DNA from: Gemmatimonadetes bacterium bin94
Lineage (GTDB): Bacteria; Gemmatimonadota; Gemmatimonadetes; Longimicrobiales; Gaopeijiaceae
Reading direction: 5' to 3'
Length of the DNA: 47,076 nucleotides
Assembly: GCA_002238865.1 (NCBI GenBank)
Contig: MPNE01000032.1
Coordinates: 1-47,076, forward strand
Shown here in pieces: positions 26,079 to 39,024 of this stretch. The notes beneath the pieces are model-generated. The model ran no database searches. It saw nothing but the letters and a program-made list of their open reading frames with translations, and was not told where the DNA came from. The position numbers were made by a program, and so were the translations under genes. Position 1 is the first letter of the stretch, and every line of letters starts with the position of its first letter.

Positions 26079-26248
26079 TCAGGAGACGGCAGAGGGGGAC
26101 TCGTCCGTGTTGAGTTCGGAAATCCCGACCGGCCGGATGTTGACCCGGAAGCCGGTAAATGCATACAGGCCCGTATCTTGGGCGACTGCATGGCAGGGGA
26201 ACATTTTGGAACCTGGAACCGTCAGGACCACTGGCCGGTACTTCCCAC
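26079..26248 (-). pseudogene. Decayed, frameshifted second body of the switch lipoprotein
   Basis: Read on the minus strand from the crossover GTG (26248-26246), this stretch aligns codon for codon with the intact body at 27940 after one missing base in the first codon: LTVPGSKM against VTVKLSGM, then DTGLYAFTGFR...VGISELNTDE against NTGQFAFTGLR...VEISGFDMDE, 12 identities in a 30-residue block without gaps. A TGA at 26081-26079 ends it. The missing base is what makes the present head stop after GSTGQWS. Confidence 0.65.
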
Positions 26249-26623
26249 CGTTACTGTCCCTATAATGGAAGCCGTACGAATATAGGAGCCGCGGAAGTCA
26301 AGTGTGACCGATCCGCCGGTGTCGGGGATCGTGGCCGCGGCGGAGGTCGCATCGAAGCTGGCGTCCGCCGGGAAGCCGCTGATGGTGACGGTGTAGGCAC
26401 CTGCCTGGACTCCGTCAAAGCGGTAGTTGCCGCCGCCGGCGGTTGTGGTGGAGGCGCCGCTGCTGAGATTGACGGATACACCGTCGATCCCCATGCCCTC
26501 GATCGAAACCTGGCCCATGATCGAGCCGGTAGGCGGCGGAGGAATAACGTCCTCTCCGCAAGCCGCGATGATCGGGAGCACCAACAACGTTGCCGCCGCG
26601 AGGAGCTTCCTGAATCTTTCCAT
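26222..26623 (-). CDS. Head of switchable lipoprotein: signal peptide plus first repeat
   Basis: 133 residues from the ATG at 26623, preferred because AAGGAG precedes it by eight bases and a lipoprotein signal follows (LLAAATLLVLPIIAACGED, Cys22). After a PPPPTGS linker comes one carboxypeptidase-regulatory/SD-type beta-sandwich repeat (IMGQVSIEGMGIDGVSVNL...YRFDGVQAGAYTVTISGF). It ends IIGTVTV at the inverted repeat, then GSTGQWS and stop. The body at 27940 carries the same repeat type (IMGQVSAEGEGLAGVTV) but no signal peptide. Inversion of 26245-27943 would join them in frame. In the present state only a short lipoprotein can be made. Confidence 0.85.
   Translation of the reverse strand: MERFRKLLAAATLLVLPIIAACGEDVIPPPPTGSIMGQVSIEGMGIDGVSVNLSSGASTTTAGGGNYRFDGVQAGAYTVTISGFPADASFDATSAAATIPDTGGSVTLDFRGSYIRTASIIGTVTVGSTGQWS
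26245..26261 (-). repeat. Left inverted repeat / crossover site of the switch
   Basis: On the minus strand this is AGGGACAGTAACGGTGG, exactly the 17 bases found on the plus strand at 27927-27943. It lies in coding sequence for GTVTV in the same codon phase at both sites, so exchange keeps the frame. Confidence 0.8.
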
Positions 26624-26730
26624 TCCGTTTTCTCCTTGGAAACGGGTGTTTGAGCCGCCCCGCATCTCGGGGGTGCTGCCACGCAAGCGTCGCAAGATCG
26701 GTGCCACTTGTCTGAACACCATGTAAGATG

Positions 26731-26749
26731 CTATCTGCAATCGAGATAG
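26731..26749. promoter_or_regulatory. Dyad in the leader of the lipoprotein head
   Basis: CTATCTGCAATCGAGATAG has perfect 6-base arms CTATCT/AGATAG around seven bases, 108 bases upstream of the head start inside the invertible segment. It could be an operator or a leader hairpin; no clear -35/-10 pair was found beside it. Confidence 0.3.
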
Positions 26750-26809
26750 GGTCATCGGGACAAGATTGGAGAACGTCGGATTCTCACCCATGGTCAGATT
26801 TCTGTCCTT

Positions 26810-27784
26810 TCAGCCCTGTTGGGTGTAGTAACGGGCAACGGCCCCGAGCCCCGCCGCCTGGCCCCTCGAGTAGTGGGCCGGCATACGCTCGGACTTCCAC
26901 CGCCCCGCGTTCATGATCGCAACCAGGCCAGCCCCGTTCGCAGTCAGATCCTGCGTCATGCCCACCCTGGGTGAATGCCCGGAAAACCCCTCGCCGAGTC
27001 CCGCCTCCCTGCACATCGCGGCGATCCGGACACAGATGGTCCTGCCGCGCCGAACACCGAACACCCGGGCTGTCGGAGACGCGTTGCGCGGGCGGATGCG
27101 GTTCAGGGCGGCCGTCGCCCGGACACCCACGTAGAGGACGGCGGGCGTGTTGGACGTCTTCGAGCACCGGATGATCAGCCGCGAGCTCCCATTCCGCCGG
27201 AACTTCACGTCGGCCCAGCGCAGGTTGGCGGCTTCGCCGCGCCGCAGCAGTGCGTCTCTCATGACGGACACGATGGCGATGTCGACCTTCCCGCGCCAAC
27301 GCGCGGCCTCGACGGACTCCGTGCGGCCGGACGGGTAGATCCTCGGGATGTGCGCAGTGTCGATGATGGCCCTCAACCCTTCTTCACGGAGCCCCCGGGC
27401 CTGCTTCGGCTCGGCCGTTCCGCGCTTGGCGGCACGGTTCTTCACCCCGGCCAGGGTCATCTTGACGCCCTCCGACACCGTGGGCGTAGGCAGTCCGGCG
27501 TGGCGATGGAAGAAGCTGATCGCCTTGCAGTCCATGGCGAGCGAAGAAAATGACAACCCCCGAGCGTCGCGGTGAACCAGATAGGCGGCCACCGTGACCG
27601 GGTCGGCCGGAAGCGGCGTGACTCCCTCCTTCTGCGCCCAGGCCTGAAAACGGTTCCAGGCGGACAGGTAAACCTTCCGCGTGGTCGGGCGCTGGCTCTC
27701 CACGACGGCGGCGGCCACGGCTTCCAGGTGGCGTTTGGCAAGATCACCTCTATGAACCAGGGGGGCGGCGGAATTGATGTTCAT
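26810..27784 (-). CDS. Tyrosine recombinase of the invertible segment
   Basis: 324 residues. The ATG at 27784 is chosen because GGAGGGG lies just before it; a TTG four codons earlier is possible. N-terminal SAM-like core-binding domain (HLEAVAAAVVESQRPTTRKVYLSAWNRFQAWAQKEG), then the catalytic domain with Arg in MRDALLRRGEAANLRW, a Lys in the SKTSN hairpin, HSPR, the NAGRWKS position and a Tyr in MPAHYSRGQ. It is about the length of simple XerC-like invertases and lacks an arm-binding domain, as expected for inversion between short sites. Located inside the 17-bp inverted repeats, so it most likely acts on them. Paralogue at 35366-36343, roughly three-quarters identical by eye. Confidence 0.88.
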   Translation of the reverse strand: MNINSAAPLVHRGDLAKRHLEAVAAAVVESQRPTTRKVYLSAWNRFQAWAQKEGVTPLPADPVTVAAYLVHRDARGLSFSSLAMDCKAISFFHRHAGLPTPTVSEGVKMTLAGVKNRAAKRGTAEPKQARGLREEGLRAIIDTAHIPRIYPSGRTESVEAARWRGKVDIAIVSVMRDALLRRGEAANLRWADVKFRRNGSSRLIIRCSKTSNTPAVLYVGVRATAALNRIRPRNASPTARVFGVRRGRTICVRIAAMCREAGLGEGFSGHSPRVGMTQDLTANGAGLVAIMNAGRWKSERMPAHYSRGQAAGLGAVARYYTQQG

Positions 27785-27815
27785 ATTCCCCTCCAACGTG
27801 CTTATTCAAAGCCCC

Positions 27816-27847
27816 GGCGCGCAGCCGAGGTCGCTCCTCGGCGCGCC
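27816..27847 (-). terminator. GC-rich hairpin upstream of the recombinase
   Basis: GGCGCG and CCGAGG pair with CCTCGG and CGCGCC around loop TCGCT, with a 3-base bulge. It is 32 bases before the recombinase start on the minus strand. No U-run follows, so it may be a leader hairpin or an insulator against readthrough into the switch. Confidence 0.35.
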
Positions 27848-27891
27848 TTTGCGGATGCGGTCCCGAAGGCATACCGCGCCGGTCAATAACG

Positions 27892-27942
27892 GCACTGTTC
27901 GCCTCGATCCGACCGACATCCGAAGCAGGGACAGTAACGGTG
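27892..27942 (+). pseudogene. Trace of a second head just inside the right inverted repeat
   Basis: The frame of the body stays open upstream of 27940 and reads ALFASIRPTSEAGTVTV. This resembles the end of the head, GSYIRTASIIGTVTV, at matched positions (I, R, S, then GTVTV), and the DNA is about 58% alike upstream of the 17-bp repeat. No start or signal peptide remains. Confidence 0.4.
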
Positions 27943-27943
27943 G
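27927..27943 (+). repeat. Right inverted repeat / crossover site of the switch
   Basis: AGGGACAGTAACGGTGG, inverted match to 26245-26261. The final GTG is the first codon of the body frame as drawn; it is not a likely translation start because no ribosome binding site or signal peptide precedes it. Confidence 0.8.
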
Positions 27944-30900
27944 AGAACACGGGTCTCGGGGGTGTGACGGTCAAGCTTTCGGGCATGGCCGACGCGCAGA
28001 CCGCCACCGACAACACCGGCCAGTTTGCGTTCACGGGCCTGCGGGCCGGGACGTACTCGGTCGAGATCTCCGGATTCGACATGGACGAGGTCGGCTTCGG
28101 CAGCACGTCGTCCGCCGCCACGATCGGCGTGGGCGAGTCGCAGATCCTCACCTTCGACGGCACGTATCTCCGCACCGCGGGCATCATGGGCCAGGTCAGC
28201 GCTGAGGGCGAAGGCCTTGCGGGCGTGACCGTCACCATGACCGGCGAGGGTGAAGACATGACCGACGTCACCGACGCCGGCGGTCTGTACGCCTTCTCGA
28301 AGCTCAAGGCGGGCGACTACTCGGTCGCGATCTCGGGCTACGACACCGACGACTACGAGTTCGCAACGACTTCCGCGAGCGTCACGGTCGCCACGGGCGA
28401 GACCGCGAACATCCCCTTCGAGGGCACGCTGCTCCGCACCTCCGGCATCAGCGGCCGGGTGAGCGTCGAGGGCACGGGCCTTGACGGCGTAGAGGTCGGC
28501 CTGGCGGGCGCGGCGGAAGCCACGACGATGACGAGCAACGGCGGGCAGTACTCGTTCGCCGGCCTGGCCGAGGGCACCTACGTCCTCACCATGATGAACC
28601 CCGACGCGAATGCGTACACGTTCGAAGAGACCACTGCCACGGTCGTGCTGGGCGACTCCGAGTCGAACATCACGAACTTCGAAGGCACGCACACGCGGAC
28701 TGCTTCAATCTCGGGCGTGCTGTTCATCGACGAGGTGGATAAGGACAAGATGCACACCGAGGGCGAGCCCTCGATCATCGAAGCACTTGGGCCGTGGTTG
28801 GCGATCCAGGACGACGAGACGAAGGCGATGGTGGCCGGGCTGCTGACCCAGGCGAAGGTGATTGTGCGGGGTCCGAGTTTGAACGACCCGCCGACAGAAG
28901 TGCCCATCAATCCGTTGGACGGAACGTTCACAACGGGCGAGACCTTGATGAAGGGGTCGTACCAGGTGGAGCTTCCCGTCAACGACGACATGATCGCGGC
29001 GGCGCTTGAAGCGGTCGGCGTCAAGTTCACCGGTGGGTCGATGGTGGTTGACGTCGACGCCGGCGGCGAGGCCACGCACAACTTCCCGTTCGAGATCACG
29101 ATGCAGACGGTGGCCACAGGCGCCCGCATGGGCGGCGGCGGCCACTTCGGTCTTCCGGTCGAGGGCGTGAAGCTGGCGCTGTACGCCCGGGCCGACGGAA
29201 CCGGAATGCTGGACGAGGCCGAGACCAACGAGATGGGCATGGCCACGTTCAACTTCGCGCGTGCCGACGACACCAGTCCCGGCAGCGAAGACGGCGACAA
29301 CATCGTCTTCGTGAGGGTGGTGGAGTCCGGCCATCCCGCGCTGGTGGTGTCCGGCAACGAGTTCGTCGAGATCGACTACGCGTCGACGGCGCGACTCTAC
29401 GCGGCGGACCACGAGATGGAAGTGGCGACGCTGATCAACGTTGCGGTCGCGTTCGACTTCTGGGTGAAGAGCAACGAGACGGCGCGTGACGGCGACGAGG
29501 GGCTTGCTGGCTGGAGCACCGCGGTCGTCATGGTCGACTCCGAAGACCCGACGATGACATCCGACCCGCTGATGAAGCCGGATCCGGATGACGACATGGA
29601 GATGGTCAACGCCACGGAGCCCACGGACGACGGCGAAGACAACATGGACGACCTGGGCAAGAGCACGTTCTCGTACGTGATCACCGACCCGACAATGTTG
29701 CCCGTGACCTTCGCCGTGGCGGCTGTTCCAGTAATGGAGGTGGCCGGTAATCGGGTCAGCGTCCAGCCCGACATGGGCGAGATGTGGGAGCAGGGCGACC
29801 CGCTGACATACACGCACACGGGTCTCGAGCTGCCGCCCGGCGAGGACGACGACATGCTCGACCTCGGCCCCATCCGGGTCACGTTCACGACGCAGGCCAT
29901 CTACGTCGGCGTGCACCGTGAGCTGGACGACCGGACCGGGTTCACCGACTTCATCGGTCTCGGAGACGGCGACTCCCGTCCCACCGGCACCGCCGAGGAC
30001 GAGATCGAGGTCAGCCTTATGGTCGCGGACAGCAGAGGGCGTCTCAGGACCTTCGAGTACGACCACGACATGGATGACGAGACGGACGACATCGAGGCTA
30101 CCGCGACCTTCGACGGTTCCGGCATCGTGTCGTTCGCCCGCATTCCGTCGGATACCGAGGTCACCGTCGTGGTCGATGCGCCGAATGACATGGTGATCGT
30201 TCCGGATGATCGCGCCACGAGGGAGATCGACGCGTTCGGCGAGCAGCTGGACGACTACCCCGACGGCCTGATTGTCGGTGCGTACGGCGACGGCAGCGGT
30301 GCGCGGCCTGATGTCTGGCTGTGCCCGCTGGCGCGGCAGGAGGACGACGACCCCAACGAGGTATGTTCGACCTTCGCCTACAAGTGGGCGACCGGGACGG
30401 TTTCGGGATCGATCAGCGGCCTCCGGGAGGACGACGAGGCCATGGTGACCCTGACGGCTGTCAACAGCAACGAAGACTACGAGGATGATCTGGCGGACGA
30501 CATCGAGGTCGAGTACGACGAAGGCGGCACCACCTACTCCTTCACGGGCGTTGCGGACGGGCGGTACATGGTCACGCTCGCGGCCAACCCGGGAAGCTGG
30601 GAAGAGGACGAGGCCACGGGCGTCTCGATCATGCACGACGAGGACAACGACGACACCGATTACACCGGCGACGTCGACAGCGGCAACGGCCTGTCCGCCA
30701 CCGACCTGCGCGGCACGATCAGGGGCGTGATCGGCAACAACTCCAACGGCAGGAACGGCCTTACCGGGTCCGAGTCGAGAGCGGGTGTCGTGGTGAACCT
30801 CCACGAGGCGAACGCAGCGATCACGTCGGGCGCCAACAGAGGCAGGCGTACCGCCAAGTCGGCCGTCGTGGCAACTGCCGAGACCGATGACGACGGTGCA

Positions 30901-32361
30901 TTCATGTTCGAGGCGCTCCAGGTGGGCAAGTACTACTTCCTGAAGCCGGAGAGCACGGACCTGTACACCGCGGTCAGGAACGGTAGCACGAGCATCGCTA
31001 ACGAGATGAGCGACGATGTCGTGCCGCACGCGCTCACACGTGCCATTGTACCCGATGAGGACTACGAGCCCAACGACGCATTGAGCTGGGACGCTCACAC
31101 CAGCACGTTGAACGGCGAAGGTGCGAACGACTTTGCGCTGCTGTACACCGACGGCGAGGTCGAGGGCGAGGTGTCGGATCCGAGTGTGCGCGCTGCGCAC
31201 GAGCGGTCGGTCGTCGAACTGCATCTCTGCAAGGCGACGAACCAGGTACTTGATAATACGGCCGACCCGCCCACGGTCACGACCGCGGCAAGCCAGTGTG
31301 ACGAATACACCGGCGATGTCCACGAGGCTTCCGTGGGTTCCGACGGCGAGTGGATTGCCGATGGACTGCGTGAAGGCTTCTACGAGGTGGTTGTGGACCT
31401 GCCGGCGGGGTACATCAACGTAAGCGCGACCGGCACCGAGACTGAAGCCGACGACGGCTTCGTCAGCCAGCAGCTCGTTGAGCTGTCCGGCGGCCGTGCC
31501 GACGCGAGCACCGAGACCTTCCACATCAAGGATCGGAACGCGGGTAATCTAGCTGAGCTCACCAGTGTCGAGATCGACGGTACCACCTGTACGACGGGCA
31601 CTGCCGCTAGCAATACCGACAACCAATGCGGCAACAACGACCTTGACGACGCGACAATCAGTGTTGTCGCAACCGCGTCTACTGGTGCGACGGTCCGCCT
31701 GAGCTCGAGCGGGACAGATCCGAGCCCCACCACCACGGGTAGCTACTCGTTCGGGGTGAGGAACGGCAGGGCCTCGACGGTCACGCTGCCCGAGGATGCA
31801 GGCACGAGCAGGTTCTTCGTCCACGTTGCTTCCGAGGACGGCTACACGACCAACGCCGCCGCCGATGCTGGATTCAACTACCGGCGTGACACCGACACCC
31901 GCATGGACATGCTGACGATTTCGTGGGGTGGCGACCGGATCGATCTCGACCGCAGAGATCTCGGCCTGGACCCGGGGAATCCGGACGGTGAAACCGCTCC
32001 GGTAACGGGAACGACGACCCTCAATGTGCTCATTGACGAGGGCGACAATGGGGCGGACGTGCCAGCAAGCCCTCTGACCATCGAGGTTGTCGGGAAGAAC
32101 ACGGACTTCGACTTCGTGAGGTTTGCGGCTGATGAGTTGACGGATGCCCCAGCCAACAGTGGAACGTTCGGTGACTGCCCCGCCACAATCGACACGGAGA
32201 CGGGCACGGTCACCGTTGAAGCAAACGCGGCGGCCGCGGCGGGCGGCAAGGGTGAAGCCGCGATCTGCTTCCGGATCACAGACAGCGATGGTGACGCGAC
32301 CGACGTGGATGCGAACACCAACAACATGAACACCTACCGTCTGATCCTGACCAGGAGGTAG
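27940..32361 (+). CDS. Large acidic repeat protein, silent body of the switch lipoprotein
   Basis: 1,473 codons opening directly at the right crossover site, without signal peptide or credible start. The first 260 residues are carboxypeptidase-regulatory/SD-like repeats with the motif (I/L)xGxVxxEGxGLxGVxVxxxG...YxFxxLxxGxYxVxISGxDxD. The rest is a very acidic multi-domain surface-type protein rich in Asp, Glu, Thr and Gly, with a further B-type repeat near 960-1060 (VVVNLHEANAAITSG...FMFEALQVGKYYFLKP) and a C-terminal region that resembles cadherin/Calx-like sandwiches. Joined to the head it would give a lipoprotein of 1,598 residues. In the present orientation it is probably not translated, or only weakly. 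The absence of stops over 4.4 kb shows it is maintained. Confidence 0.85.
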   Translation: MENTGLGGVTVKLSGMADAQTATDNTGQFAFTGLRAGTYSVEISGFDMDEVGFGSTSSAATIGVGESQILTFDGTYLRTAGIMGQVSAEGEGLAGVTVTMTGEGEDMTDVTDAGGLYAFSKLKAGDYSVAISGYDTDDYEFATTSASVTVATGETANIPFEGTLLRTSGISGRVSVEGTGLDGVEVGLAGAAEATTMTSNGGQYSFAGLAEGTYVLTMMNPDANAYTFEETTATVVLGDSESNITNFEGTHTRTASISGVLFIDEVDKDKMHTEGEPSIIEALGPWLAIQDDETKAMVAGLLTQAKVIVRGPSLNDPPTEVPINPLDGTFTTGETLMKGSYQVELPVNDDMIAAALEAVGVKFTGGSMVVDVDAGGEATHNFPFEITMQTVATGARMGGGGHFGLPVEGVKLALYARADGTGMLDEAETNEMGMATFNFARADDTSPGSEDGDNIVFVRVVESGHPALVVSGNEFVEIDYASTARLYAADHEMEVATLINVAVAFDFWVKSNETARDGDEGLAGWSTAVVMVDSEDPTMTSDPLMKPDPDDDMEMVNATEPTDDGEDNMDDLGKSTFSYVITDPTMLPVTFAVAAVPVMEVAGNRVSVQPDMGEMWEQGDPLTYTHTGLELPPGEDDDMLDLGPIRVTFTTQAIYVGVHRELDDRTGFTDFIGLGDGDSRPTGTAEDEIEVSLMVADSRGRLRTFEYDHDMDDETDDIEATATFDGSGIVSFARIPSDTEVTVVVDAPNDMVIVPDDRATREIDAFGEQLDDYPDGLIVGAYGDGSGARPDVWLCPLARQEDDDPNEVCSTFAYKWATGTVSGSISGLREDDEAMVTLTAVNSNEDYEDDLADDIEVEYDEGGTTYSFTGVADGRYMVTLAANPGSWEEDEATGVSIMHDEDNDDTDYTGDVDSGNGLSATDLRGTIRGVIGNNSNGRNGLTGSESRAGVVVNLHEANAAITSGANRGRRTAKSAVVATAETDDDGAFMFEALQVGKYYFLKPESTDLYTAVRNGSTSIANEMSDDVVPHALTRAIVPDEDYEPNDALSWDAHTSTLNGEGANDFALLYTDGEVEGEVSDPSVRAAHERSVVELHLCKATNQVLDNTADPPTVTTAASQCDEYTGDVHEASVGSDGEWIADGLREGFYEVVVDLPAGYINVSATGTETEADDGFVSQQLVELSGGRADASTETFHIKDRNAGNLAELTSVEIDGTTCTTGTAASNTDNQCGNNDLDDATISVVATASTGATVRLSSSGTDPSPTTTGSYSFGVRNGRASTVTLPEDAGTSRFFVHVASEDGYTTNAAADAGFNYRRDTDTRMDMLTISWGGDRIDLDRRDLGLDPGNPDGETAPVTGTTTLNVLIDEGDNGADVPASPLTIEVVGKNTDFDFVRFAADELTDAPANSGTFGDCPATIDTETGTVTVEANAAAAAGGKGEAAICFRITDSDGDATDVDANTNNMNTYRLILTRR

Positions 32362-32419
32362 GCCACACCCAACCCGTCACGAGTTCTGAAGAGAACTTGA
32401 CGACGGCGCAGCAAGGAAC

Positions 32420-32447
32420 GCCCCCGCCCGGTTCGCCGGGCGGGGGC
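32420..32447 (+). terminator. Perfect 12-bp hairpin with TTCG loop
   Basis: GCCCCCGCCCGG and CCGGGCGGGGGC pair fully around TTCG, an extra-stable tetraloop. It lies 58 bases after the body stop and 30 bases before the beta-helix gene. No T-run follows, so it may be a transcript stabiliser or attenuator rather than a classic terminator. Confidence 0.6.
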
Positions 32448-32477
32448 AACCCCGTCCATGGAGGAGGTGGCAACGAC

Positions 32478-33125
32478 ATGAGCACCATCCACCACACGGC
32501 AGTTGTGCACCCCACGGCGACCGTCGACCCGACCGCCACCCTTGGTGCACAAGCGATCGTAGGCTCAGGTGTCACCATCGGCGCCCACGTCAGGATCGGT
32601 GACCGCGCCATCCTCTGGCGCAACGTCTCCGTGGGCGACTTCGCCACCATCGAGGACGGCGCCGTGGTGGGCGAGGACACCGAGATCGGGGCCGGCGCGA
32701 AGCTGGCTGCCCATGCAAAGACGGGCACAAACGTGCGCATTGGAATCCGTGCGGTCGTGATGTCGAGGGTTGTTATCGGCAACGGTTCGCACGTCGATGA
32801 CGGGGCGCACGTCGAGATGCGAGCCACGCTGTTCGGGGGCGTCCTGATCGGCAAGGACGCCTTCGTAGGGAACCGGACCCGGCTGAGCAACCACACGATT
32901 GTGGGGGTCGGCGCCAAGGTGGCGCACCGGGTCGTGGCCGGACGCGAGACCGTGATTGGCGCGGGCGCGACGATCGACAAGATGGTCACCCTGGGACAGC
33001 GGTCGCGCATCGGCAAGGATGCATTCGTGCCATCCCGGGTGACGGTTCCCGACGGCGGCCGTATCGACAAGGGTGCATTCGTACCACCTGCGGCGGCAGG
33101 GCCCAGGCAAGCCTGGTTGGGGTAG
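32478..33125 (+). CDS. Left-handed beta-helix (hexapeptide repeat) protein
   Basis: 215 residues from the ATG at 32478, chosen because AGGAGGT precedes it by nine bases; the earlier in-frame ATG/TTG region would have to translate the hairpin. The protein is almost wholly made of hexapeptide turns ([LIV]GxxxxI/V): HTAVVHPTATVDPTATLGAQAIVGSGVTIGAHVRIGDRAI and on. LpxA-like acyl/acetyltransferases and gamma-carbonic anhydrases share this solenoid, but no catalytic His set or acceptor domain is recognised. No signal peptide. It follows the switch body and is three bases before the LRR gene, so the three may be co-transcribed. Confidence 0.75.
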   Translation: MSTIHHTAVVHPTATVDPTATLGAQAIVGSGVTIGAHVRIGDRAILWRNVSVGDFATIEDGAVVGEDTEIGAGAKLAAHAKTGTNVRIGIRAVVMSRVVIGNGSHVDDGAHVEMRATLFGGVLIGKDAFVGNRTRLSNHTIVGVGAKVAHRVVAGRETVIGAGATIDKMVTLGQRSRIGKDAFVPSRVTVPDGGRIDKGAFVPPAAAGPRQAWLG

Positions 33126-35365: not shown

Positions 35366-36343
35366 TTACCTCTCTTCACCGTAGTAACGGGCGACGGCCC
35401 CCTGCGCCGCCCCCTGGCCCCGCGAATAGTAAGCCGGCATGCGTTCGGATTTCCAGCGTCCTGCGTTCATGATCGCGACGAGGCCGGCCCCGTGTGCGGC
35501 CAGATCCTGAGCCATTCCCACCCTGGGCGAGTGGCCGGAGAAGCCCTCACCGAGCCCCGCTTCCCTGCACACTGCAGCGATCCTGGTACTGATGGTCCTC
35601 CCGCGGCGAACACCGAACACCCGCGCGCCGGGAATCGGACTGTCCGGACGGATGCGGTTCAGGGCTGCGGTCGCCCGAACGCCCACGTAGAGGACGGCGG
35701 GCCTGTTGGACGTTTTCGAGCGCCTGACGGTAACACGCGAACTTCCGCCAGGGTGAAACTTGACGTCGGCCCACCGAAGGGCAGCGGCTTCCTGCCGTCG
35801 CAGCAGCGCGTCTCGCATCACTGACACGATCGAAATGTCCAACGCCCCACGGGCCCGCGCGGTATCGAGAGTTTCCAGGCGGCCGGAAGGATAGACCCTC
35901 GGGATATGCGCAGTGTCGGTGATTGCTTTCAACTCCGCTTCCCGGAGCCCCCGAGCCTGCCTTCGCACGAGCCCTCCCCGTTCGGCGGCGCGGTTCCTCA
36001 CGCCGGCGATCGCCATCTTGACGCCTTGGGAAGCTGTCGGCGTCGGGATCCCGGCCCGACGATGAAAGAAGCTGATCGCCTTGCGGTCCATGGCAAGCGA
36101 GGCGAGGGACAGCCCCACGGCATCACGATGGACCAGATAGGCTGCCACGGTAAGCGGTTGGGCGGGCAGCGACCTGACACCTTCCCGCCTGGCCCAGGCC
36201 TCGAATCGCTTCCAGGCGGCCGTGTACGCCTTGCGCGTGCTGGGGCGCTGACTCTCGGCGACGGCTGCGGCCACGGCCTCCAGGTGACATGCGGCGAGGT
36301 GGTCCTCAATGGGGATCAAAGCGACTGTGGCGTTGTCATCCAT
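35366..36343 (-). CDS. Tyrosine recombinase, paralogue of the switch recombinase
   Basis: 325 residues. It follows the recombinase at 26810-27784 along its whole length: HLEAVAAAVAESQRPSTRKAYTAAWKRFEAW, catalytic Arg in MRDALLRRQEAAALRW, SKTSN, HSPRVGM, NAGRWKSERMPA and Tyr in YYSRGQ. All catalytic positions are intact, so it should be active. Nucleotide identity is clearly below protein conservation, so this is not a recent copy. No 17-bp site like that of the first recombinase was found around it. It may act on sites outside the window or on an undetected pair near LuxR copy 2. Confidence 0.85.
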   Translation of the reverse strand: MDDNATVALIPIEDHLAACHLEAVAAAVAESQRPSTRKAYTAAWKRFEAWARREGVRSLPAQPLTVAAYLVHRDAVGLSLASLAMDRKAISFFHRRAGIPTPTASQGVKMAIAGVRNRAAERGGLVRRQARGLREAELKAITDTAHIPRVYPSGRLETLDTARARGALDISIVSVMRDALLRRQEAAALRWADVKFHPGGSSRVTVRRSKTSNRPAVLYVGVRATAALNRIRPDSPIPGARVFGVRRGRTISTRIAAVCREAGLGEGFSGHSPRVGMAQDLAAHGAGLVAIMNAGRWKSERMPAYYSRGQGAAQGAVARYYGEER

Positions 36344-36437: not shown

Positions 36438-36683
36438 TCAGCCCCGGCGCTCCCCGTGCTCCCGGAGGAAATCCTCCGTCCCTTCCGGCAGGAACAGGTT
36501 GTCGGAGATCTCGGCAATCTCCTCGGCTTCTTCCCAGGCCCTTTCCAGCAGCCAGAGCTCGCCCTCCAGCGCGCGCCGCTCCTGCTCTTCGTGCAGCGCC
36601 ATTTCAAGTGCCAGTTTGGTCGGTTTCGGCATCTTGTTGACGTAGCCGGGTTCGCCGTACTTCGCGAAGCCTCGCCCGGCTGT
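36438..36683 (-). pseudogene. Inverted C-terminal fragment of the zinc-ribbon membrane protein
   Basis: Minus-strand frame reading AGRGFAKYGEPGYVNKM, then the complete C-terminal helix region (MALHEEQERRALEGE..., FLPEGTEDFLREHGERRG) and TGA. The protein is identical to copy A at 38791-38990 over about 65 residues, while the DNA differs at about eight places, all synonymous. The N-terminal three-quarters, including the zinc ribbon and membrane segment, is absent; the fragment abuts the stop of the DUF819 gene. Confidence 0.75.
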
Positions 36684-37877
36684 TCAGCCCCCCACCAGCC
36701 CCAGCAGCCACGCGCACAACAGCGCTGCGTAGATCCCCAGAATGTACCCGGCCACCGCCATCAGCAGTCCGATCGGTGCCATCGCGCGATGGTACACCCC
36801 GGCCACCACCGGGGCCGACGCCGCGCCGCCGATGTTCGCCATGCTGCCCGTCGCCACGAAGAACAGAGGCGCGCGCACGATCCGGGCCGCGATCAGCAGC
36901 ACGGCGACGTGAATCGCGATCCAGACCGCGCCGGCCGCAAGGTAGACCGGCGCGTCGAGCACGGCCCTCAAGTCCGCCTGGGCGCCGATGCCGGCAAGGA
37001 GCAGGTAAAGAGCCGTGTAGCCCAGCCCCGAAGCGCCCACCTTTTCCAGCTCGCGAAGGCGTGTGAACGAAAGTGCCAGGCCCCCGGTCACCACAATGAG
37101 GATGGCCCAGGTGGTGCCGCTGATGATCGGCGGATCGCCCATCGAGGGAAAGGTGTTTCCCAGCCGCTGGGCACCCACCGCGCACGCCATGCCCAGCCCG
37201 ATCATGACCACGGCGTCACGCAATGTGGTGGGGCGCCGCTCCCGGTCCATATCCGCCAGGCGGCTGTTCGTCTCTTCGACCGTCTCGGTCCGTGCCCTGG
37301 TGCGCCGGTCGAAGCGGCCCTGAAACCCCACCAGTGCGATGAGCACCCCCATCCACCCGTACCCCACCACCGTGTCCACCACGATCACCGGACCCATCGC
37401 GTCCGGCGACGTGCCGACGCTCTCCGAGATCGCGACCATGTTGGCCGTCCCCCCGATCCAGCTCCCCGACAGCGCCGCGAAGCCGGTCCAGGCGTCGGCC
37501 GGAAGCGCGCCCTGGAAGATCAGGAGCGAAATCGGCCCGCCGATGACGATCCCGACCGTGCCCGCGGCCACCATGAACAGCGCCGTTGCGCCCAGCCGGG
37601 CGATGCTCATCACGTCCACCGAAACCATCAGCATGAGGAGCGCGAAGAGGAGCAGGTACGGGACGGTCCAGTCGTAGAGCGGCGACGCCGACGGCGTGAT
37701 CCCGGCGGTCGTCGCGAGCATGGGCAGGAAGTAGACGTAGATCACGGGCGGAACCACCTCGAAGAGCTTCCTGCAGCGGGGCAGCTCCGAGATCCAGAAG
37801 ACCCCGGCCACGATGGCGGCCAGGAAACCGAAGACGCCCATGGGGTCGGTGATCAGCGCGGTTGTCTCGGGTTCCAT
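36684..37877 (-). CDS. DUF819-family integral membrane protein
   Basis: 397 residues, almost wholly hydrophobic with about 11-12 membrane segments. Family landmarks: ITDPMGVFGFLAAIVAGVFWIS, VYFLPMLATTAGITPSASPLYDW, and the central GSWIGGTANMVAISESVGTSPD, with a mirrored SMANIGGAASAPVVAG near residue 350, consistent with an inverted-repeat transporter fold. A cytoplasmic charged loop (RRTRARTETVEETNSRLADMDRERRP) separates the two halves. DUF819 proteins are YjcL-like putative transporters of unknown substrate. Alone between the zinc-ribbon fragment and the zinc-ribbon tandem pair. Confidence 0.85.
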   Translation of the reverse strand: MEPETTALITDPMGVFGFLAAIVAGVFWISELPRCRKLFEVVPPVIYVYFLPMLATTAGITPSASPLYDWTVPYLLLFALLMLMVSVDVMSIARLGATALFMVAAGTVGIVIGGPISLLIFQGALPADAWTGFAALSGSWIGGTANMVAISESVGTSPDAMGPVIVVDTVVGYGWMGVLIALVGFQGRFDRRTRARTETVEETNSRLADMDRERRPTTLRDAVVMIGLGMACAVGAQRLGNTFPSMGDPPIISGTTWAILIVVTGGLALSFTRLRELEKVGASGLGYTALYLLLAGIGAQADLRAVLDAPVYLAAGAVWIAIHVAVLLIAARIVRAPLFFVATGSMANIGGAASAPVVAGVYHRAMAPIGLLMAVAGYILGIYAALLCAWLLGLVGG

Positions 37878-38001
37878 GGCCTGAATCCCTGTTCATGGCC
37901 GGCCGAGTGCGCCCGAAAGGAGGCGTCCGCCGGCTTCGTACCCTATTGTGGTCCTCACGGACAGCTACGATACCGACCCCTCAAAGTCAAATGCGACGGC
38001 C

Positions 38002-39024
38002 GTGTACAAGTCCTGCATGTTTTGCACCAAGCCCCTCGGGACGAACGAGGTCATCGAGACGTTCCCCGTGGGACGCCGCCTCGCCTTCGACGCGGCACGC
38101 GGCCGTCTCTGGGTCGTCTGTGCCAAGTGCGAGCGCTGGAACCTGACCCCTCTCGAAGAACGCTGGGAAGCTGTGGAGATGTGCGAGCGGATCTTCCGGG
38201 ACACGCGCATACGCGTATCCACCGACAACATCGGTCTTGCACGCCATCCGGAGGGGTTGACCCTGGTCCGGATCGGCGAGCCGATGCGCCCCGAATTCGC
38301 CGCGTGGCGCTACGGCGACCAGTTCGGGAGGCGTCGCCGCAAGACGATCCTGTACGGCGCGGCGGCCGTCGCCATCCTCGGCGGTTTCGTGATCGGTGGC
38401 GCGGCCGCGGGCATCCTGAGCGGTTCCGTCCTGAGCCAGAGCGGCAATCTGGTCCACCTCTGGAACGCGCGAACACTCGTCAAGCTGTACCCGGACGAAG
38501 GCGGCAAGATCAAGCTCAAGCAACATGACCTGCTGGGCACGCGGGTGCGTCCCGCCGACGACGAACTGGGCTTCAAGGTGCAGATCCGCAAGGGGAAGAA
38601 GAAATCATGGCATGAAGGCGCCGAGGCCCGCCGCTTCGCGGGGGCGATCCTTCCCAGGATGAATGCGATGGGGGGCAAGAAGGAGATGGTTCAGCACGCC
38701 GTCAAGGAGATCGAAACCGTCGGCCACCCGGAACGGTTCCTTGTCGACATCGCCGAGGGTGACCGCTTCCGGGACAAGAAAGGCGTGCCCGGCTACGTCA
38801 ACAAGATGCCGAAACCGACCAAACTGGCGCTCGAAATGGCGCTCCACGAAGAGCAGGAACGGCGCGCGCTGGAGGGCGAGCTCTGGCTGCTGGAACGGGC
38901 CTGGGAAGAAGCCGAGGAGATTGCGGAGATCTCCGACAACCTGTTCCTGCCGGAAGGGACCGAGGACTTCCTCCGGGAGCACGGGGAGCACGGGGAGCGC
39001 CGGGGCGACGCCGGGCGCGGCTGA
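38002..39024 (+). CDS. Zinc-ribbon membrane protein, copy A
   Basis: 340 residues from the GTG at 38002, chosen to match the start of the next copy (VYKSCMFC against MYTTCMFC); an ATG 18 codons earlier is possible but adds unrelated residues. Two CxxC pairs (SCMFCTKPLG and VCAKCERWNL) form a likely treble-clef/zinc ribbon in the first 50 residues. One membrane segment follows (TILYGAAAVAILGGFVIGGAAAGIL, about 125-150). The C-terminal third is strongly helical (HEEQERRALEGELWLLERAWEEAEEIAEI). No family name is recognised. Tandem with copy B five bases downstream. Confidence 0.75.
   Translation: MYKSCMFCTKPLGTNEVIETFPVGRRLAFDAARGRLWVVCAKCERWNLTPLEERWEAVEMCERIFRDTRIRVSTDNIGLARHPEGLTLVRIGEPMRPEFAAWRYGDQFGRRRRKTILYGAAAVAILGGFVIGGAAAGILSGSVLSQSGNLVHLWNARTLVKLYPDEGGKIKLKQHDLLGTRVRPADDELGFKVQIRKGKKKSWHEGAEARRFAGAILPRMNAMGGKKEMVQHAVKEIETVGHPERFLVDIAEGDRFRDKKGVPGYVNKMPKPTKLALEMALHEEQERRALEGELWLLERAWEEAEEIAEISDNLFLPEGTEDFLREHGEHGERRGDAGRG

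Follow-up and report, generated by a model that had tools for sequence, protein, structure and literature searches.

The closest known counterpart of the locus described here is the vsa locus of Mycoplasma pulmonis, where the HvsR tyrosine recombinase operates. Switching of the vsa type shares with it a 5' part bearing a signal peptide (hereafter the head), silent 3' parts without one (the bodies) and a recombination site inside the coding region. Two sister genomes meet the vsa-type criterion, one (G017) with one head and two headless bodies and the other (G001) with one fused and one headless body. There are differences: the Gemmatimonadota loci belong to another phylum, code for unrelated proteins, are associated with a Cre-like enzyme, have sites that also lie far apart on the chromosome and carry bodies that, where measured, are much larger (1,366 to 2,286 residues). 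Moreover, at the locus that we started from, the invertase and the head lie together within a 1.7-kb segment and there is no second body. In the mba and UU172 systems of Ureaplasma parvum, one inverted repeat is located in a gene behind a conserved signal-peptide/anchor part and the other is intergenic, and inversion alternates expression with a neighbouring headless ORF (PMC3047005); the differences are that the recombinase is not established there, the repeats are of 21 nt and of other sequence, the genes are small and the hosts are Mollicutes. Tail-fibre switches such as the G segment of phage Mu join a constant N-terminal part to alternative ones by inversion of coding sequence, with the invertase gene adjoining; they differ by their serine recombinase, by their phage tail-fibre products and by yielding a product in both orientations. 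Shufflons (Rci/pilV) and the hsdS inversion systems (PsrA, Streptococcus pneumoniae) resemble our locus in having a tyrosine recombinase, inverted sites within coding sequence and silent alternative parts, but they change C-terminal tips or specificity domains, whereas here the change or loss extends to all that follows a head of 126 residues. No report of phase variation or inversion in Gemmatimonadota or in sponge symbionts was found in the open literature searched, which is only weak evidence of absence.

The stretch of DNA analysed (47,076 nt, hereafter the window) is contig C7 of the 4.42-Mb, 83-contig assembly of the source genome, Gemmatimonadetes bacterium bin94 (G000). A preliminary description, made from sequence alone, had claimed that a tyrosine recombinase and the start of a lipoprotein gene lie between exact 17-bp inverted repeats, and both parts of the claim held (PF00589 for the one, lipobox and ribosome site for the other). 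The left arm (26245..26261) reads AGGGACAGTAACGGTGG on the minus strand and codes for GTVTV at the end of the head; the right arm (27927..27943, plus strand) is the same 17 bp in inverted orientation, at the start of the headless body. The two are exact reverse complements with 1,665 bp between them. In simulated sequences having the dinucleotide composition of the window, 17-bp inverted pairs spaced by 300-5,000 bp occurred on the average 0.1 times per sequence (any at all in 4 out of 60), and the only further such pairs in the real window lie within one duplicated gene fragment (36441/38990). Between the arms, and both on the minus strand, are the recombinase gene and, 186 bp behind it, the head (26222..26623). 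The latter starts at ATG 26623, with an SD sequence (AAGGAG) 8 nt upstream, and comprises a signal peptide with lipobox (26558..26623, minus strand, MERFRKLLAAATLLVLPIIAA-C, by sequence reading; lipobox LPIIAAC), one carboxypeptidase-regulatory-like domain, GTVTV at the site, seven out-of-context residues and a stop. The criterion for a bacterial lipoprotein, a signal peptide with lipobox, is thus met (MERFRKLLAAATLLVLPIIAAC, by reading and motif match); the localisation of the protein, and with it surface exposure, is inferred. A scan for promoters of the sigma-70 type gave one weak match, on which no conclusion here rests.

Head and body are related through the reading frame. In the present orientation the head reads ...SYIRTASIIGTVTV up to the arm, then GSTGQWS and a stop (...RTASIIGTVTV-GSTGQWS), hence a stub of 133 residues. 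The body (27928..32361, plus strand), with SdrD_B, CarboxypepD_reg and prealbumin-like repeats, is a 1,473-codon ORF called from GTG 27940, inside the right arm; its frame passes through that arm in the codon phase of the head (GGG ACA GTA ACG GTG), and it has neither a start nor a signal peptide of its own. Inversion of the segment in silico gave a single 1,660-codon frame without any stop, in which 1,598 codons count from the MERFRK methionine. The predicted ON join is ...IIGTVTV-ENTGLGGVTV... and the peptide spanning head and body is IIGTVTVENTGLGG. This anatomy and this frame are shown; that the segment inverts, and does so reversibly, is inferred. The preliminary description was therefore right about the head ending in IIGTVTV at the left repeat, the body entering in the same phase at the right one without start or signal peptide, and the unbroken frame of 1,598 residues after inversion. 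Its proposal that the present orientation is OFF for the large protein is supported as the best reading, although no reads bear on the inversion itself. Its view that the exchange point lies inside the coding sequence also held, and a promoter inverton at this locus was rejected because the fusion falls within the frame and the body lacks a signal peptide, its own frame running into the arm.

Downstream of the body are a gene for a hexapeptide-repeat protein of unknown role (32397..33125, plus strand), linked to a body in a second locus too (88% identity), and a second recombinase paralogue (35366..36343, minus strand, 74% identity), which has its counterpart downstream of that second locus. 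A search for arms around these second recombinase copies (window 35366-36343; C57:61910-62881) revealed nothing convincing. The same region of the window contains a 221-bp inverted repeat (36441-36662 and 38775-38995, 93.7% identity), which corresponds to the 3' end of a gene (37948-39024) and a partial inverted copy of it beside the second recombinase, with a membrane-protein gene (36684-37877) enclosed.

The recombinase of the segment (26810..27784, minus strand, stop at 26810) matches PF00589 (E 1.3e-7). Its most likely start is ATG 27784, preceded by the SD sequence GGAGGGG, and not TTG 27796, which is a small correction. The catalytic R-K-H-R-W-Y criterion of Phage_integrase is met: R185, K213, H274, R277, W300 and Y309 (numbered on the 328-residue ORF) are invariant in 19 relatives. 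The nearest solved structure by profile is Cre (E 1.7e-22), in an alignment that covers the LLR and GHSxRVG motifs. The protein does not qualify as a XerC/XerD chromosome-dimer resolvase (15-18 bits with the NCBIfam models, versus cut-offs of 330-371). At the putative strand-exchange site there is a common core of 17-18 bp, the flanks of which are not conserved; the two expected inverted binding arms were not recognised. The source genome has seven recombinases of this family. Among 59 relatives the recombinase was found in the same genus, plus only one fragment elsewhere in the family; more distant relatives are present in bins of other phyla. Within the genus it adjoins 11 of the 13 headless bodies. 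The pairing of recombinase and site rests on neighbourhood and co-occurrence only, and the action of the enzyme on these sites is thus an inference.

The whole layout exists in a second copy in the source genome, on contig C57, with 17-bp arms, a head 97% identical, a recombinase at 81% identity and a headless body (2,286 codons, cadherin-like domains). Inversion in silico of its segment (51728-53425) is predicted to yield 2,411 residues from the same methionine. The C57 arms (TGGGACGGTAACGGTGG) are identical to each other, and compared with those of the window (AGGGACAGTAACGGTGG) both deviate at the same 2 of the 17 positions; such identity within a locus and difference between loci is expected if the arms of one locus exchange sequence. 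At the DNA level, the two loci become homologous precisely at the left arm (window 26244, L008 7728) and their left flanks differ, so that the site has probably acted as a breakpoint between loci as well. Each of the two has, downstream, genes for the hexapeptide-repeat protein, an LRR protein, a LuxR-type protein and the second recombinase copy. Fused genes, which the preliminary description proposed to look for in relatives, were found in the same genome and across the genus. When 410 residues of the predicted ON junction were used as a query, two fused paralogues were retrieved from the source genome, on contigs C10 (89%) and C29 (88%), aligned over residues 1-410 of the predicted ON protein with no stop across the junction, and similar fused genes were found across the genus. 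Since intact paralogues span the junction, the predicted ON protein is a normal form of this lipoprotein family. The C29 junction retains the site (GGGACGGTAACGGTAGA); that of C10 has lost it (GGCACCGTGACGGTCGA) with the amino acids kept. No ON contig of the window or C57 locus was found in the source assembly, where both are OFF.

The conservation of the site and the recurrence of the arrangement are shown by the survey of the genus. The core, of about 17 bp, is GGGACRGTAACGGT, and every headless start carries it in the identical codon phase (13/13). With up to one mismatch, the pattern GGGACRGTAACGGTNGA gave 36 matches in 23 same-genus genomes versus 2 for the reversed control, and the matches without mismatch are at head-body junctions or headless starts. 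The tally for the genus is 13 headless bodies (in 10 of the 23 genomes), four heads without body (window, C57, G007 C105 and G006 C18) and about 15 fused genes; the minus-strand entry of G017 C44 was counted as an out-of-frame head-body gene and not as headless. The first valine of GTVTV is coded by GTA in all 13 headless starts, while GTA makes up 4.1% of 434 valine codons in the genes sampled, and the same motif inside bodies or in site-less fused genes mostly uses GTG or GTC. Retention of this rare codon at headless starts indicates that the DNA is conserved, beyond the peptide. In one genome, G021, the site of a fused gene is exact and all that is left of the recombinase is a remnant, which counts against the proposed switch. 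Two other arrangements were encountered. In G009 (contig C45, L094 1-360), only the left part of the site (GGGGACGGTAAC) is present upstream of a recombinase, without a body. In G010 (contig C54, L096 15838-16957), another recombinase is located between 15-bp inverted repeats and adjoins a hexapeptide-repeat gene; this cassette is about 1 kb upstream of a fused lipoprotein of the same family.

Wherever two sites are on the same contig they are inverted (5/5), at spacings of 1.7 kb for the window and for C57, 7.6 kb for G007 C105, 9.3 kb for G017 C44 and 46.7 kb for G001. G007, from a sister species, is syntenic (the TonB-receptor neighbour of the window is present at 80% identity) and has the same ACAGT spelling of the site, 18-bp inverted arms, a head-only gene and a headless body; inversion in silico would extend the 128-residue head-only product to 2,043 residues. 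In G001, a 4.09-Mb single-contig chromosome record, body A (1,416 codons) is joined to the head while body B (1,366 codons) lies headless beside a recombinase, and inversion would place body B in frame behind the head. In G017, one head faces one body, and the genome has two more that are headless. That one head faces several bodies in some genomes makes it likely that the system swaps bodies, of which the window would represent the ON/OFF form. What is constant in the family is the succession recombinase, site, headless body. The claim of the preliminary description that the invertase travels with the head holds for the two loci of the source genome, to which the grouping of both in a short invertible segment is special, and is not general in the family. 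The site at L082 15662-15677 (G017 contig C44) has five Gs instead of four, which puts the head out of frame with the body in either orientation; slippage on this G tract could conceivably be a second off-switch, or the extra base could be an assembly error.

One and the same body was observed in two contexts within one bin, which comes nearest to evidence of inversion in a population. In G004, the body fused to a head on contig C77 is also present on C100, joined to an unrelated flank; the two copies run for 1,561 nt without mismatch and the contigs diverge just where the site begins, except for a common TG. C100 finishes with ~57 nt that differ, so that a recent duplication is not excluded. 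Two contigs of G006 stand in the same fused/headless relation (95.7%). On the first of them, C18 (L131 7300-8575), two lipoprotein heads are in tandem: the first ends just past the site (GTVTVANIG, then stop) and the second is fused to the body whose near copy (95.7%) is headless on C72. Contig ends near the site in G002 and G016 were considered as cases of mixed orientation and rejected, as they match no other contig of their own genome. A maximum-likelihood tree was built from the first 260 residues that follow the site in 26 bodies. On it, the fused and headless states require 8 changes by parsimony, at least 6 of which are forced by well-supported branches, and the states show no more clustering than labels assigned at random (a number as low was reached in 205 of 500 shuffles). 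The states are thus scattered, and not inherited by clade. One class of bodies, VEGAGQ, is headless in the four species having it (4/4), and some bodies may therefore be silent in the long term, or dead.

In our view, the window very likely holds a coding-sequence inversion switch that carries its own recombinase and is seen in the OFF state, the switching being inferred without support from reads. The Cre-like recombinase would recombine two short inverted sites (core GGGACRGTAACGGT). Site 1, with the codons GTVTV, closes a head bringing the ribosome site, the signal peptide, the lipobox, the first domain and presumably the promoter; site 2 forms the first codons of a body without its own start. 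Inversion of the 1.7-kb segment would put both in frame to give the 1,598-residue lipoprotein (ON), and the orientation seen would give only the short lipoprotein stub (OFF). The site encodes the start of a repeat unit, which places the junction at a repeat boundary and would allow any body that begins with the site to be attached. In the sister genomes, the same sites could join one head to alternative bodies.

Four other explanations were considered. The one that survives best, though we regard it as unlikely, is cassette capture, i.e. the recombinase inserting bodies as elements at an attachment site behind the head, in the manner of an integron or integrative element. The succession recombinase, site, headless body does resemble an int gene next to attP, the homology of window and C57 starts exactly at the site with differing left flanks, and sites are scattered over the chromosome. 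However, all five same-contig pairs (window, C57, G007, G017 C44 and G001) are inverted, which means inversion and not excision, and neither a circular element nor a direct second site was seen. Exchange between loci remains possible as an addition to inversion. A second explanation is that the loci are relics: past inversions split the genes, nothing switches now, and the recombinase is kept for another use or is decaying. In its favour are the OFF state of both G000 loci, the headless VEGAGQ bodies and the out-of-frame G017 head. Against it, split bodies are still open over more than 1,300 codons where measured, the catalytic residues are invariant, arms are identical within a locus and different between loci, the rare GTA codons are kept at the site and one body is found in two contexts within one bin (G004); we consider it very unlikely. 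Even less probable is homologous recombination or gene conversion among paralogous repeats, with the recombinase as a bystander. Heads and bodies do form a repetitive gene family with several copies per genome, but in four of the five pairs the identity at the breakpoint is limited to 17-18 bp and ends abruptly on both sides, the same site is at every headless start and a recombinase is beside 11 of 13 headless bodies. Finally, an assembly error or chance repeat, conceivable with repetitive genes in an 83-contig assembly, is all but excluded, since the layout recurs at two independent G000 loci and one sister-genome locus, G001 is a single 4.09-Mb chromosome record and an exact 17-bp inverted pair at such spacing is rare by chance.

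The inversion switch, if it operates as proposed, probably belongs to a general device that swaps bodies on surface lipoproteins and would give a host-associated bacterium phase or antigenic variation, the window being its two-state form. A bolder reading, for and against which the evidence seems to us evenly balanced, is that a family of Cre-like recombinases, several to a genome, acts chromosome-wide on dispersed identical sites in an animal symbiont. Inversions of 1.7 to 46.7 kb would then combine one or a few heads with a repertoire of giant bodies, and recombination between loci would also move modules around the chromosome. The related records are metagenome bins of Gemmatimonadota; their sponge origin is inferred from sample codes (RHO, IRC, SB06xx) and co-occurring phyla and is not a stated field. 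To judge from the literature searched, no head-body inversion switch has been described before in Gemmatimonadota, and a lineage that is uncultured and apparently sponge-associated would here have a vsa-like device. The implication is that these symbionts vary giant surface proteins resembling adhesins, whereas such variation is mostly discussed for pathogens; that the cell benefits from it is inferred. It also accounts for the signal-less giant ORFs and the short lipoprotein stubs of these genomes, and its exact 17-bp junctions can be counted in existing metagenome reads.

More distant recombinases were also seen in cassettes of their own. In the source genome (contig C2, L012 8995-10211), one with 33% identity stands by itself within a pair of exact 25-bp inverted repeats (CGCGATAACGGGATTTATCGCGCGC), and an 864-codon ORF follows directly downstream; a relative in a BD2-11 bin (L172) is flanked by almost the same repeat. 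Relatives from Acidimicrobiia and Chloroflexi bins (L163, L165, L166, L168, L169, L170, L171 and L175) each have their own short exact inverted repeats (AATTGCCGTTATCCC, CATAAGTTGCGTTAT, AATGCAGTTATACACG and TATAAGTGCCCTTATACGGC). These cassettes, of 1.2-1.5 kb, could flip themselves, and those of L169 and L171 abut ORFs of more than 1,000 codons.
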